Shown here one piece after another: positions 2,823-49,475 of a stretch of 64,000 nucleotides of DNA. The position numbers and the translations under genes were made by a program. How positions within the stretch are numbered: the stretch's first letter is position 1; each line of letters opens with the position of its first letter. The DNA is from Deroplatys truncata (Eukaryota > Arthropoda > Insecta > Mantodea > Mantidae), in NCBI GenBank assembly GCA_030765065.1, contig CM060990.1:667380618-667444617 (forward strand), read 5' to 3'. The notes beneath the pieces were generated by a model, which was given only the letters and a program-made list of their open reading frames with translations, had not been told where the DNA came from and searched no databases.

Positions 2823-4064
2823 TACACTATGTGATCAAAAGTATCCGGACATCCCACAAACAATACGTTTCTCATCTTAGGTGCATTGTGCTGCCACCTA
2901 CTGCCTGGTACTCATTATCCGTGACCTCAGTAGTCATTAGACATCGTGAAACAGCAGAATGGGACGCTCCGTGGAACTTACGGACTTCGAACGTGGTCAG
3001 GTGATTGGGTATCACTTGTGTCAGAAGTCTGTACGCGAGATACCCACACTCCTAAACATCCCTAGGCCCACTGTTTCTGATGTGATAGTGAAGTGGAAAC
3101 GTGAAGGGACATGTACAGCACAAAAGCGTACACGCCGACCTCGTATGTTGACTGACAGAGACCGCCGAAATTTGAAGAGGGTCGTAAAGAGTAATAGGCA
3201 GACGTCTATCCAGACCATCACACACGAATTCCAAACTGCAGCAGGATCCACTCCAAGTACTATGACAGTTAGGCGTAAGGTGAGAAACCTTGGATTCTAT
3301 GGTCGAGCGGCTGCTCATAAGTAACACATCACGCAGGAAAATGCCAAACGACGCCTCGCTTGGTGTAAGGAGCGTCAACATTACAAGATTGAACAGTGGC
3401 AAAACGTTGTGTAGAGTGACGAATCACGGTACACAATGTGGCAATGCGATGGCAGGGTGTGGGTATGGCGAATGCCCGGTGAACGTCATCTGCCAGCGTG
3501 TGTAGTGCCAACAGTGAAATTCGGAGGTGGTGGTGTTATGGTGTGGCCGTGTTTTTCCTGAAAGGTCTTGTTGTTTTGCGTGGCACGATCACAGCGCAGA
3601 CCTACATTGATATTTTAAGCACCTTCTTGCTTCCCACTGTTGAAGAGCATTTCGGGGATGGCGATTGCATCTTTCAACACGATCGAGCACCTGTTCATAC
3701 TGCACGGGCTGTGGCAGAGTGGTTACACGACAATAACATCGCTTTAATGGACTGGCCTGCACAGAGTCCTGACTCGAATCCTATAGAACACCTTTGGGAC
3801 GTTTTGGAACGCCGACTTCGTGCCAGGCCTCACCGACCTACTTCGATACCTCTCCTCAGTTCCGCCCTCCGTGAAGAATGGGCTGCCATTCCCCAAGAAA
3901 CTTTCCAGCAGCTGATTGAAAGTATGCCTGCGAGAGTGAACGCTATCATCAAGGCTAAGGGTGGGCCAACACCATATTGACTTCCAGTATTACCGATGGA
4001 GGGCGCCACGAACTTGTACGTCATTTTCAGCCAGGTGTGCGGATACTTTTGATCACGTAGTGTA
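2823..4064 (+). mobile_element. Tc1-like DNA transposon, both inverted ends present, inactive
   Basis: The element is about 1.24 kb and flanked by TA on both sides (2823-2824 and 4063-4064), as expected for Tc1/mariner insertion. The inverted ends carry GTGATCAAAAGTATCCGGA at 2831-2849 and its complement at about 4040-4057. One decayed transposase gene fills the interior. A second copy of the same family lies inverted at 48231-49475, so the two allow a direct comparison. Short ends and a single roughly 340-codon gene fit the family's usual architecture. Confidence 0.92.
2959..3980 (+). pseudogene. Tc1-like transposase (DD34E), frameshifted
   Basis: The N-terminus (from ATG 2959) has the paired-type helix-turn-helix of Tc1 transposases, with FERGQVIG and later VSDVIVKWKREGT. 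A stop follows at about 3322 (RAAAHK). The middle then continues in the same register through a conserved FGGGGVMVW near 3519-3545. A frameshift near 3557-3565 separates it from the C-terminal catalytic part starting KGLVVLRGT. The second aspartate is visible in HDRAPVHTA and the glutamate in NPIEHLWDVLERR, giving a DD34E layout. The first catalytic aspartate lies in a SDES segment following a stop near 3412. At least three disruptions make it non-functional. In life it would cut and paste its own element. Copy 2 lacks some of these lesions. Confidence 0.9.
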
Positions 4065-15833: not shown

Positions 15834-16882
15834 TGATACCGTAATTATTGACGGGAAGATATAAATAATTAAAGAAATGATAGTAATAGAAAGAAATAAT
15901 TGCAATAAATAACTTCCGTATATTAAACCAATGTATAATATAATAAGCTTGAGTTGAAAGATTTGTCCGAAGAAAAAGGTAATTAGCAAGTCATGTTAAG
16001 CAAAGTCATTAGTAACAGCGTGACGAGCGAAAGTATTAGCTTAAAGATTCTTGGAATTCAGTTTAGAGTTAAGTTCACTATATTTGGATAGCCATGCAGG
16101 CAGAAACTCTGAAAAAGAGAAATGAAAGGTATTTCTGAGCGTTTAGCCAGGTCCGCATAGCAACAAGGTAACAGATGCACACGTAAACATTGTAAGATTG
16201 ACTCCGCGCAAGATGGGATGTTGGTAGGGGAGTAATTTGTAGGCAGAGCTTGAGTTAAGAAATAGGCGTGCAATTATAATCAGAGACACATTCGTTCGTG
16301 CACACTCTATCCGTGCACATATAAGCCACTCTGGATACTTGTGACCACTCGTGTTATTTTAAGCGCTCAGCGACGCGCTTGTATGAGTAAGATTTCGCGG
16401 CTATCGTGAGGGATTTTGCCGGTAAACATTTTAGCGATTCACCGCAAGTTACGCTTATAGTTTCTTTTATTGCGGAAACAGTTATTTCAAACAGCAAATT
16501 TGATACTGCAGAAAATAGCAGGTATAATAATTGAATTGTTAGTTTCGAGTGTTATAATTCATAATCAGTTTTATTCTTTATTTTCAAATGGTCGGCAAAT
16601 CGCTTCAATACCTGAAGCATTAGATCAATTACGTTTCTCAGTCAATTTAAACTGGTGTTATCTTTTCACACCCGCCCACGCATACCCTGAGAGAAAGATC
16701 TCATAGCTTTATCACTGGAGCAGCTGGCGCACGAGGAAATAGAACGAACTACGAGATAGCGACATCAGAAGCAGGTAAAGTATACTGCCTCAAAAATGCC
16801 GCACTATCGCACGGCTTTAAAAATTCAGATAATGTAGTACGTTATCAAGATTGGCGCCTCATGGTGATGCGATATGTTATCA
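15834..16882 (+). repeat. left LTR of the 15.8-19.8 kb element
   Basis: It matches the right LTR along its length, including ATTGACGGGAAGATATAAA near 15847, TTACGCTTATAG near 16449 and the CCTGAGAGAAAGATCTCATAG region near 16685. It is slightly longer than the right LTR because of small insertions such as GCAACAAGGTAACAGATG near 16159. The two LTRs have diverged noticeably, indicating an old insertion. Confidence 0.85.
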
Positions 16883-17109
16883 AAATTGTCGCACCATTGC
16901 GGCATCAAACACACGTTATCAAACTGGCGCCCCATCGCGGGGCTTCGAAGTGAGGACCTCAGAAGCTGAGGAGGCCACTGGAAATCAAACCCAGTGACCG
17001 ACAGCACGGGAAGGAAGGAAGGCAATTCAAAACGGCGGTAGCTCAGGCTATAAAGATATTCGGCGAGCAAGAGAGAGGAAAGAAGACATCAGCATCAGTA
17101 GACAACATT

Positions 17110-18796: not shown

Positions 18797-19826
18797 TGAT
18801 ACCTTAATTATTGACGGGAAGATATAAATAATTAAATAAAGAAATGATAGTAATATAAGGAAGTAACTGCAATAAATAATTTCCGTATATTATACCAATG
18901 TATAATATAATAAACTTGAGTTCAAAGATTTGTCAGAAGAATAATGTAGTTAGCGAGTCATGTTAAGCAAAGTCATTAGTAACAGCGTGAGGAGCAAAAG
19001 CATTAGCTGAAATGTAATTGGAAGGCAGTTTAGAGCTAGGTTCAGTGCTTTTGAACAATCACGTAGGCAGCAATTCTGAAAAAGAAAAGTGAAAGGTATT
19101 TCTGAGAGTTTAGCCTGGCCTCCATAGCAACAATGGGAATTTTGGTAGGGGAATAATATGTAGGCGAAGCTTGAGTTAAGAAATAGGCGTGTAATTCTAA
19201 TCCGAGATACATTCGTTCGGGCACACATACGTTCCTGCACACATTCGTGCATACATTTCTCACTCTGGATACTTGTGACGACTCGTGTGTTATTTTAAGC
19301 GCCTAGTGACGCGCTTATGTTAAAAAGATTTATCGGCCATCACAAGGGATTTTTCCGGTAAACATTTTAGCGACTCGCGGAAAATTACGCTTATAGTTAG
19401 TTTCTTTTATTGCGGAAACAATAATTATTTCAAACCGTAAAATTATTGCTGAAGAAGTTAGCAGGTATAATACTTCAGTTGTTATAGTTTCGGGTGCTAC
19501 GATTCATAATCAGTTTGATTATTTATTTTCAAATGCTGGGCAATTCGTTTCAATAGCTGAAGCTTTAGATCACATTAAAATTCTTAGTGGATTTAAGCTG
19601 GTGTTAGCCTTTCACACCCACCACGCATACCCTGAGAAAAAGATCTCATAGCTTTACCACTGGAGCAGCTGGTGCACGAGGCAACAGAACGAACTACGAG
19701 GTAACGACATCAGAAGCAGGTGAAGTATACTGCCTCAAAATTATCGCACCATCGGGCGGCTTTAAAAATTCAGATAACGTAGTACGCTATCAAAATTGGT
19801 GCCTCATGGTTGCGCAATACGTTTCA
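18797..19826 (+). repeat. right LTR of the 15.8-19.8 kb element
   Basis: It begins TGATACC after ACGGGGCATT and ends GTTTCA before AAAA. It contains the same internal landmarks as the left copy, with about one difference per few bases in places. Small open frames inside are by-products. Confidence 0.85.
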
Positions 19827-20009
19827 AAAATCAAATCCGAGAAATACACGTTTGAAAGTGTAGCTCTCACAAACTTTAGTGTTTGAAAGGATATTAAGTC
19901 ACGTGGCGTGACTTAAAAACACTGTCACAGAAAAAGGAAAACTGATTGTTAAAATGGAAAGTGAAAGTTTTGACACCAAAAAATACGCTTTTCGAAGTTT
20001 TGGGGAAAT

Positions 20010-20205
20010 ATTCGTCTCAGCATTTTATAAATTTTTAAAACACTTCGGGCCCTGGGCTCGTAACCACTTGTTCACTTCTGATTGGTGCTACTCAGTGTTA
20101 AAGTGCCTACCTCCATGATGACCTTTGAGTCAGAGGAACATGTGAAAATCACTTGGGAAAAGATCTGGTGAATATGGAGGATGCGAGAAAATTTCCCAGT
20201 TGCAT
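20010..20205 (-). pseudogene. mariner transposase C-terminal fragment, left arm
   Basis: On the minus strand this segment carries a TTTTCTCGCATCCTCC block and continues into RHFNTE and VNKWLRAQGPK-like codons, which is the C-terminal part of mariner transposases (W-L-R-x-Q-G-P is typical). It is the inverse of the arm at 20230-20465. It has frameshifts and no N-terminus. Confidence 0.65.
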
Positions 20206-20229
20206 CTTCTGAGCTACGCTTGGGTCAAG

Positions 20230-20561
20230 ATTCAACTTGGAAGTTTTCTCGTGTCCTCCGATTCACCGGAGCTTGCCCCAAGTGATTTTCACATGTTCCT
20301 CCAACTCAAAGGTAAGCACTAAAACACGATGATGAAGTCAAATCAGTGAACAGCTGGTTGCGAGCACTGGGCCCGACGTGGTACAACACTGGCTTGGAAA
20401 AACTTGTGTCACACCCCCAAAAATGCTTGGAAAAACATGTTGACCATGTAGAAAAGTAACAGAAGGATTGTACAATATAAATACAATTAACTCAATATGA
20501 TCAATTGTGTGTAATGTTTTTTATAAAATAGGGAAACTTACTTATTGGACGCCCCTCGTAA
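20230..20561 (+). pseudogene. mariner transposase C-terminal fragment, right arm, with element end
   Basis: The plus strand has the same coding block (TTTTCTCGTGTCCTCC near 20248), then codons for VNSWLRALGP, WYNTGLEKLV and CLEKHVDHVEK ending at a stop near 20458. This matches the mariner C-terminus in order and spacing. The element end TTGGACGCCCCTCGTA lies at 20546-20561. The segment before the catalytic C-terminal region is absent. Confidence 0.7.
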
Positions 20562-20569
20562 GTCTTATT

Positions 20570-21065
20570 TGAAATGTTAAGCATCTACCTTTTAGTGCAT
20601 TTAAGGAAAACTGACTGTGCAAATACAGACTACAGGAGTGCAGACCTATTTCTCCCAATATGAAACTGTAGAAAACAGTATCCCTCCTTCTCCAGCAATG
20701 GTTGGGTTTACAATCATACACTTCCCTTCTGCCATAGTATTATGACTGTCCAGTTTACAACTGTCACTTCACAGTTCTCACTGTCACTGTTTTAATCTAG
20801 TTCGGCTTTCACTGGAACTTCACTTAGTTCACACTGTCACTTCACTAATGTGAACTAGTTCAGTTTCCCTGTCACTTCACTTTCCTTCTTGACGTAGCAG
20901 CCTTTTCTTCCGGACGGTTCACTCGCTGGAGAGTCAAACACAAGACTTCAGCATCTCGCGGAAGCAGCGCTAACTGCACGTCAAAGCAGTCGTCACAAAC
21001 TCGCTAAAAGAACAGCACTTTTCGTCGCAACAGAAACGCACTCACTAACTCTCCTCGTGAGAACA
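20570..21065 (-). other. candidate transcribed leader downstream of the heat-shock promoter
   Basis: Read leftward from the promoter at 21.1 kb, this region is a long leader-like sequence with three copies of GTGAAGTGACAG (complements near 20763, 20842 and 20869). The first ATG opens only six codons. A later one near 20735 opens about 29 codons without recognised homology. No Hsp coding sequence such as a GIDLGTT start is found. It may be the 5' part of a lost heat-shock gene, a non-coding heat-shock transcript, or a transposon leader. Confidence 0.35.
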
Positions 21066-21070
21066 CTCGC

Positions 21071-21119
21071 TTATATAGCCAATGGAATCTTCCACAGAAC
21101 ATTCTAGAACTTTCTGGAC
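21071..21119 (-). promoter_or_regulatory. heat-shock element array with TATA box, minus strand
   Basis: At 21097-21119 the sequence reads GAA-ca-TTC-ta-GAA-ct-TTC-tg-GAC: five nGAAn units in perfect 5-bp phase and alternating orientation. GAATCTTC lies just before it (21085-21092). This is the binding pattern of heat-shock factor trimers. A TATATAAG box on the minus strand lies immediately beside it (21072-21079), placing the start of transcription near 21040-21050 and reading toward lower coordinates. The HSE-TATA distance is short but found in insect heat-shock genes. A further GGAAGATTCC lies upstream at 21153-21162. Confidence 0.7.
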
Positions 21120-21169
21120 ACACGTTCTAGAGGCGGGGGAAGGACACTTTCGGAAGATTCCATGTTGAT

Positions 21170-21955
21170 GCTGGCGAGTCTACTTATCTTTTTTTATCTC
21201 CGACTGCCCGGCGCCGACCTCCCGATAACCTTAAACAATAGTTGCGCCACAGTATCGACACTTTATTTCCGAGCATCTTAAATAAATTTATGGAAGTATC
21301 CAAGAAAACGATTAAGAATTTATTCTAAAACTGCTTGCAGTTTAAAGCAGTTATTCGACGTTTTACTGATTTGGTTTTTTGGCGCTTGCATGGGAAATTT
21401 CAAGGAATCTCTAAAAAAAACGCTCATCGCGAGGAACATTTTAAGTAAATAAGAATACTGGAGAATAAATCATTAAAAGTTGAAATTCAGGATTAAGATA
21501 ACATCATCATTACTTTGATAATTTAATTTACAACAGAGTATGTATGGTATTTTATAAACTTGCAGAACATAAAAATGATATTGGGTTGTATAACTGCAGA
21601 TGCTTGTTTGTTTCTTCCTTTTTGTTTGTTTGTTTCTTCTTTACTTCTTTTTGGGCATGTGATCTAAATTCACATTTTTGTTGAAGGTTTTTCAGCTAAG
21701 TTCAGTGAAGTGATAGGCATTTTGAAGCATACATTTCGAAAACTTCTGATTACGATGTTCTTGAACCACATCTAATTATTATTATTATTATTATTAATAA
21801 TAATAATAATCTCATTTGACACATTTGGAAATATAAGCAATTCATGGTTGACATTCTTATTATAGCCAGGACAAAAAAATGCAACAATACAAATACTTCA
21901 AAAGTCCGAATAATTTGGACTGTTGATAAATATGAAGAAAAAAAATTAAATGCAC
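21170..21955. other. non-coding stretch with a TTA/AAT microsatellite
   Basis: AT-rich DNA. At 21775-21811 a (TTA)n run turns into (AAT)n, making a small perfect palindrome. No gene recognised. Confidence 0.5.
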
Positions 21956-48230: not shown

Positions 48231-49475
48231 ATATGCGTGATCAAAAGTATCCGGACACCTGGCTGAAAATGACGTACAAGTTCGTGGCGCCCTCCATCGG
48301 TAATGCTGGAAGTCAATATGGTGTTGGCCCAACCTTAGCCTTGACGACAGCGTTCACTCTCGCAGGCATACTTTCAATCAGATGCTGGAAGGTTTCTTGA
48401 GGAATGGCAGCCCATTCTTCACGGAGTGCGGAACTGAGGAGGGGTATCGATGTAGGTCGGTGGGGCCTGGCACGAAATCTGCGTTCCAAAACATCCCAAA
48501 AGTGTTCTATAGGATTCAACTCAGGACTCTGTGCAAGCCAGTCCATTACAGGGGTGTTATTGTCGTGTAACCACTCCGCCACAACCTGTGCAGTATGAAC
48601 AGGTGCTCGATCGTTTTGAAAGATGCACTCGCCATTCCCGAATTGCTCTTCAACAGTGGGAAGCAAGAAGGTGCTTAAAATATCAATGTAGGTCTGCGCT
48701 GTGATCGTGCCACGCAAAACAACAAGGGGTGCTAGCCCCCTCCAGGAAAAACACGACCACACCATAACACCACCACCTCCGAATTTCACTGTTGGCACTA
48801 CACACGCTGGCAGATGACGTTCACCGGGCATTCGCCATACCCACACCCTGCCATCGGATCGCCACATTCTGTTCCGTGATTCGTCACTCCACACAACGTT
48901 TTGTCACTGTTCAATCGTGTATGTTGACGCTCCATACAACAAGCAAGGTGTTGTTTGGCATTTCCTGCATGATGTGTGGTTTATGAGCAGTCGCTCGACC
49001 ATGGAATCCAAGGTTTCTCACCTCACGCCTAACTGCCATAGTACTTGGAGTGGATCCTGATGCAGTTGGAATTTCTGTGTGATGGTCTGGATAGATGTCT
49101 GCCTATTACTCTTTACGATCCTCTTCAAATGTCGGCGGTCTCTGTCACTCAACAGACGAGGTCGGTCTGTACGCTTTTGTGCTGTACATGTCCCTTCACG
49201 TTTCCACTTCACTATCACATCAGAAACAGTGAACCTAGGGATGTTTAGGAGTGTGGAAATCTCGCGTACGGACTTCTGACACAAGTGACACCCAATCACC
49301 TGGCCACGTTCGAAGTCCGTGAGTTCCACGGAGCATCCCATTCTGGTGTTTCACGATGTCTAATGACTACTGAGGTCGCGGATAATGAATACCAGGCAGT
49401 AGGTGGCAGCACAATGCACCTAAGATGTAAAACGTAGTTTGTGAGGTGTCCGGATACTTTTGATCACATAGTGTA
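48231..49475 (-). mobile_element. Tc1-like transposon, second copy (inverted)
   Basis: GTGATCAAAAGTATCCGGACA at the left (48238-48258) and its complement at 49449-49468 mark the inverted ends; TA lies at the right edge (49474-49475). The left edge is blurred by the adjacent (AC)n/(TA)n repeat. It is the same family as 2823-4064, in opposite orientation. Confidence 0.92.
48313..49341 (-). pseudogene. Tc1-like transposase (DD34E), frameshifted
   Basis: From ATG 49341: MGCSVELTDFERGQVIGCHLCQKSVREI with the same helix-turn-helix as copy 1. A frameshift near 49070 breaks the linker. The catalytic part is continuous from 48894: [13 protein letters not shown] (first aspartate), [37 protein letters not shown] (second aspartate) and [18 protein letters not shown] (glutamate), ending VGPTPY. 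This copy lacks the deletion near FSWRGLAP present in copy 1, so each retains segments the other lost. Confidence 0.9.

Follow-up and report, generated by a model that had tools for sequence, protein, structure and literature searches.

The window, meaning the whole 64-kb stretch of Deroplatys truncata DNA analysed here, is packed with repeats, and at 20741–21251 its minus strand carries a heat-shock-type promoter followed by a leader-like region. Promoter and leader together are one solo LTR, belonging to a family of LTR retrotransposons that is both old and dispersed. The features at the locus are as follows.

21252–21255, minus strand: upstream target-site duplication, ATAC
20741–21251, minus strand: solo LTR of 511 bp, TGTGGC...GTCATA, delimited by sibling copies and the flanking duplication
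21142–21161, minus strand: degenerate distal HSE, GGAAT CTTCC GAAAG TGTCC, which in several siblings reads AGAAT CTTCT GGAAG TTTCT
21096–21115, minus strand: proximal HSE of four perfect alternating units
21084–21093, minus strand: extra HSE dimer, GGAAG ATTCC, 2 bp out of phase
21079–21083, minus strand: reverse CCAAT box, ATTGG
21070–21077, minus strand: TATA box, TATATAAG
21043–21048, minus strand: initiator-like TTAGTG, with a predicted +1 at 21046
20741–21046, minus strand: R-U5 (the "leader"), ~306 nt, with three GTGAAGTGACAG repeats
20737–20740, minus strand: downstream target-site duplication, ATAC
19830–20558, no strand assigned: mariner-like debris outside the LTR, with no Pfam match

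The proximal HSE reads AGAAA GTTCT AGAAT GTTCT on the minus strand (21115–21096) and is the single perfect 4-unit run in the window, compared with 0.025 such runs expected per 64 kb in a first-order Markov simulation. None of 150 simulated strands had a 4-unit run placed at most 70 bp upstream of a TATA box, but this control is lenient because the simulated strands hold fewer TATA boxes (56 each) than the real ones (141 and 127). A sequence-only reading of this DNA had described five nGAAn units in perfect phase. Four of them are indeed perfect, but the fifth, TGTCC (21120–21116), is not; the five units together hold 14 of 15 core letters, and this relaxed score is also attained at window position 603. 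After the proximal HSE come the dimer GGAAG ATTCC (21093–21084), 2 bp out of phase, the reverse CCAAT box ATTGG, and then TATATAAG at 21077–21070, so that the TATA box said to adjoin the HSE array on the minus strand is in place. The initiator A within TTAGTG would fall at 21046, at a distance of 31 nt from the T of the TATA box, and by the general spacing rule for TATA boxes and initiators this A is the predicted +1. The window copy retains the 4-unit HSE, the reverse CCAAT box and the TATA box, and has lost the distal HSE.

On the minus strand the LTR runs from 21251 to 20741 and has the perfect 4-bp target duplication ATAC on both sides; its ends are TG...TA, one change at the end from the TG...CA type. 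The leader-like region reported downstream of the promoter corresponds to the R-U5 part of the LTR, but its predicted length is ~306 nt and not ~400. Its three exact repeats were confirmed: GTGAAGTGACAG occurs exactly three times (20880, 20845 and 20772), together with one degenerate copy. AATAAA is absent from the window LTR and one ATTAAA is present (20796). The leader RNA did not fold better than shuffled sequences (z −1.13), no Rfam family was found at the gathering threshold, a pattern scan of viral contigs gave 0 matches, and a literature search on the letters of the repeat returned unrelated titles only.

The earlier reading had placed mariner debris where a gene would begin. The leader ends at the LTR boundary at 20741, and the debris (19830–20558), mariner-like by its motifs, lies outside it. 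A mariner-like transposase tail is seen at 20041–20380 as an inverted pair of pieces that are 72% identical. Adjoining this debris is a second LTR-type element made of two direct 1.0-kb repeats, 80% identical (15834–16885 and 18797–19829), with lysine/glutamate-rich repeats in its interior. The window also holds two inverted Tc1-like copies, 92% identical (2823–4057 and 48236–49475), which seem to be far more recent than the LTR family. A protein search for the host group gave named relatives that were largely arthropod (a termite, beetles, mosquitoes and a spider), along with many metagenome proteins.

A search of the entire genome (4.29 Gb, 818 contigs) with a 596-bp query gave at least 40 scored places, and promoter-only and leader-only DNA queries each again gave at least 40, the window's own place being included in every case; the 8309 first-look candidates of the 596-bp query are unconfirmed and are not a copy count. 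The dispersed copies are 75–83% identical, and eight aligned loci, with the window's among them, have in common a unit of ~500–580 bp that mostly starts with TGTGAC and ends with GTCACA. The leader of a mobile element, one of the options originally offered, is what the locus holds, as promoter and leader make up one solo LTR.

LTR ends were sought in 62 copies (36 + 26, window's included), of which 34 had recognisable TG..A ends within the length filter and 28 were dropped for unclear ends or length. Perfect 4-bp direct duplications flank 13 of the 34, the window copy included (shuffled mean 6.07; 2 of 2000 shuffles as high), and non-palindromic ones flank five (1.66 on average after shuffling, with 20 of 2000 shuffles as high). 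Inverted 4-bp flanks, GTAT/ATAC, were seen in one copy of the 34. For an earlier set of 20 copies, 15 of them informative, the letters matched 36 direct versus 30 inverted. The duplication test is weak on its own because ATAT is palindromic.

Some copies have further peculiarities. The downstream flanks of L019 and L031 are alike over 856 bp at 77%, and the upstream flanks of L010 and L025 over 479 bp at 90%; both stretches differ from the retrotransposon interior described below and are probably other repeats. At L046 (C16:678036912), L022 and L034 the GTGAAGTGACAG end of the LTR is expanded into tandem arrays with units of roughly 113, 75 and 57 bp, as if U5 were seeding satellite DNA. Mean CpG in the siblings is 0.96 inside the LTR versus 0.74 and 0.76 in the flanks, with just 23 of 36 siblings above both flanks; a CpG peak as the mark of a living promoter was rejected because the siblings have it too.

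The promoter was also examined in 30 loci found with the leader alone; four were already in the set and were dropped, leaving 26 leader-selected copies. The promoter block was present in 25 of the 26. At least three perfect alternating HSE units were found in 14 of these 25 and in 0 of 50 control segments, in which the longest run was 1 unit in 49 and 2 in one. Six of the 25 copies had a longest perfect run of 4 units, eight one of 3 and eleven one of 2, and the 11 of 25 without a run above 2 units speak against a heat role; two separate runs of at least three units were seen in just 5 of 25. The recurrent forms among the leader-selected copies are AGAAT CTTCT GGAAG TTTCT for the distal and GTTCT AGAAT GTTCT for the proximal HSE. 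The window's fourth proximal unit, AGAAA, recurs in one of the 25, for which AGATA is the usual form (16/25); copies retrieved for their resemblance to the window promoter have AGAAA more often. The commonest base at HSE core positions has a frequency of 0.92 versus 0.857 outside the HSE and TATA box (16 of 5000 random sets as high). That the HSE cores are slightly better kept across copies is suggestive only, because alignment to the window block may bias this comparison. The predicted heat-shock promoter, with HSEs, reverse CCAAT box and TATA box in U3, is a property of the family.

One copy, L070 at C22, was extended as L077 and has, in order, an LTR, a primer-binding site (PBS), Integrase_H2C2, a purine tract and an LTR. 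The first LTR lies at 218–797 and the second starts at 2122 or 2124; the two are 73.6% identical over the aligned part, and HSE runs are present in both. They differ by K of about 0.33, with gaps counted as differences, and the family is therefore old. Directly after the first LTR comes CTGGTGTCAGGAGTGGGAT, a primer-binding-site-like stretch, and GAGCAGGGAGCTG lies between the interior and the second LTR. The 1.3-kb interior contains a coiled-coil-like stretch (by eye) and Integrase_H2C2 at E 1.5e-7, over the curated Pfam cut-off; the stop-free pieces scanned gave this domain alone and no RT domain. On its own, Integrase_H2C2 cannot distinguish Ty3/Gypsy from certain other LTR groups.

The L077 interior was then compared with the flanks of all 62 copies, covered for most of them over 1–1.5 kb each side. 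It adjoins four: L070 on the downstream side, this being its own 5' LTR, and L014, L054 and L061 on the upstream side. It is found over its whole length in L014 (73%) and in pieces in L054 and L061, the three interiors being 69–75% identical to L077 over the main stretches, with GGGAGCTG or GGTAGCTG abutting the LTR in each. The remaining 58 of the 62 have no L077 interior in the flanks covered, bar one 20-bp match, and most sampled copies therefore look solo. No second LTR was seen in three 9.4-kb neighbourhoods, which are not proven solo because they reach only ~1.4 kb to one side. L045 has the layout of L077, with the promoter part missing; ~950 of its internal bases align with L070 at 70%, and Pfam found nothing over the cut-off in its pieces. 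This layout and alignment suggest that the element spread with the shortened interior, in a non-autonomous form.

Exact matches to the PBS complement AATCCCACTCCTGACA number 268 in the genome, versus 0 for the reversed control, and the PBS reverse complement, ATCCCACTCCTGACACCA, is a candidate match to the 3' end of a tRNA-Leu. Four of the 268 places were inspected and contained no tRNA gene; by eye, all four are bordered on one side by a stretch resembling the start of the interior, and at least three (L085–L087) on the other side by one resembling an LTR end, at least three of the four thus reading as PBS junctions of this family. Two places on C16, picked by eye, have an integrase fragment on the same strand as an LTR match and 276 bp upstream of it. 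The fragment and LTR at these places (C16:18306763 and C16:18389598) are duplicated 83 kb apart and look like one duplication. The longest open frame among the 150 integrase matches listed is 250 aa, so there is no intact autonomous partner among them. Fifteen of the 150 fall within 1.7 Mb (C15:96383980–98010143) at 56–59% identity, with two TGA stops each and, in three, also a TAG; this cluster suggests that a segment with a single copy of the element was amplified.

We also searched for a gene that the promoter could have served. A Pfam scan of 135 minus-strand stop-to-stop ORFs of at least 38 aa below 21060 gave no Hsp domain and one weak unrelated match, in agreement with the earlier statement that no Hsp coding sequence lies behind the promoter. 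A further scan, covering 206 of 251 other stop-to-stop ORFs of at least 58 aa (115 plus, 91 minus), returned mobile-element and DNA-binding domains and isolated weak unrelated matches (e.g., Vts1, K-cyclin_vir_C, NucS_C, Comm and EF-Ts_N). No chaperone appeared among the 135 + 206 window ORFs scanned, and the reading of the locus as an hsp exon was rejected on this ground.

The genome's own hsp70 genes were used for comparison through their five best matches, one of which has an internal stop. The 1.2 kb upstream of these five showed no homology to the LTR (best blastn E 0.11); capture of an own hsp70 promoter was rejected since these regions are unrelated to the LTR, and the proposed check for the leader next to an hsp gene was likewise negative there. 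A 3-unit HSE run is present in three of the five upstream regions. In L078 and L080 it lies upstream of a TATA box, as in the LTR, whereas in L081 there is no close TATA box, and L079 and L082 have no run of three. Unlike these promoters, the LTR has neither the hsp70 leader nor the gene, and shares no sequence homology with them.

Three other explanations of the locus were weighed. It could have been adopted by the host, for a heat-induced non-coding RNA or as the promoter of a distant minus-strand exon; the persistence of four perfect HSE units, TATA box and initiator in an old copy would agree with this, as would the slightly better kept HSE cores, but these parts are retained in the siblings as well, the CpG signal is shared across the family, and no conserved host-gene protein domain was found within 20 kb downstream, which makes adoption quite improbable. 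We give very little credence to an orphan hsp promoter, in which a chaperone gene, either lost or duplicated, would have left behind its 5' end, severed by mobile-element insertions. The HSE array, TATA box and leader do resemble an insect hsp promoter, yet both belong to a repeat that is dispersed, has the ends of an LTR and is flanked by target duplications, four sampled copies are joined to one retrotransposon interior, and the hsp70 upstream regions described above are without homology; this option of the sequence-only reading is not supported. A cut-and-paste DNA transposon or MITE, its target making ATAT mimic a 4-bp duplication, would suit the inverted ends TGTGAC/GTCACA, the palindromic ATAT and the copy with inverted GTAT/ATAC flanks, but is very improbable given five non-palindromic direct duplications against that one, and is largely excluded by the two-LTR loci; in L077 two direct copies enclose a PBS and an integrase domain, and the same interior lies beside three more copies.

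Ty1/Copia elements make a 5-bp duplication and have a Copia-type integrase. The family described here has 4-bp duplications and an Integrase_H2C2 domain, and because of this duplication length and integrase type we place it outside the superfamily of ONSEN, a Ty1/Copia element of plants. In its promoter, nevertheless, it resembles ONSEN/ATCOPIA78 of Arabidopsis, COPIA37, TERESTRA and ROMANIAT5, for which clustered nGAAn in the LTR and heat-driven transcription are described (PMC5059998). ONSEN LTRs have four nGAAn motifs, and the 4P class, with at least four adjacent units, is the strongest (same source); the window's proximal HSE fits this class, and of the ONSEN-like arrangement of at least 3–4 adjacent nGAAn in an LTR promoter the window has 4 units and 14 of 25 leader-selected siblings 3 or 4. 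Unlike ONSEN, this is a probably Ty3/Gypsy-type, non-autonomous family of an insect genome with TATA and CCAAT boxes beside the HSE. In A. thaliana, functional HREs are kept in 0 of 16 fragments or solo LTRs (PMC5059998), whereas here 14 of 25 leader-selected copies have 3–4 perfect units, judged by sequence alone.

Among animals, Caenorhabditis Helitrons are described as spreading HSEs, with HSF binding and heat response shown (PMC6927752). Our family is similar in being a mobile element that spreads HSF sites, here predicted ones, in an animal genome, and differs in being an LTR element known from sequence rather than a DNA transposon with demonstrated binding and response. Drosophila copia and gypsy are likewise insect elements whose LTRs have a predicted HSF site, but one per LTR is listed for them (Table 5, PMC10745035), compared with multi-unit HSEs beside a TATA box here. 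HSE rules in flies are given in PMC2871787 and the hsp70 promoter layout in PMC4336284, while PMC9780303 tabulates plant LTRs under heat. Among the titles and abstract openings listed in literature searches, there was no insect LTR family whose promoter holds a multi-unit HSE.

Taken together, the window copy is very probably a solo LTR of an old HSE-bearing family whose elements would have been HSF-driven, non-autonomous and of Ty3/Gypsy type, with spread tied to heat; a design working like that of ONSEN is likely. Under heat, HSF trimers would have bound the HSEs of the LTR and RNA would have started at the initiator, with R-U5 as its leader. This RNA would have been packaged and reverse-transcribed by the proteins of an autonomous Ty3/Gypsy relative, the family would have spread in bursts tied to heat stress, and later LTR-LTR recombination would have left solo LTRs such as the window copy. 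Even now, heat may induce a short minus-strand transcript from the window copy, though the search turned up no gene that it could drive, and this copy may be the source of a heat-induced non-coding RNA, another of the options first proposed.

Plants provide the best-documented cases of heat-driven LTR elements. The present locus carries a caution, as a perfect HSE-TATA promoter without a gene behind it may be a solo LTR. It is unlikely, in our estimation, that the dispersed solo LTRs act as an HSF-binding network, with mass heat transcripts, HSF titration, heat control of nearby genes and genome-wide rewiring; if this were true, an element family would have rewired the heat-shock response genome-wide. 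With an animal family that has a full predicted heat-shock promoter in many copies, heat-driven transposition bursts in a giant genome become testable, and so does the question of whether genes next to such LTRs come under heat control through them.
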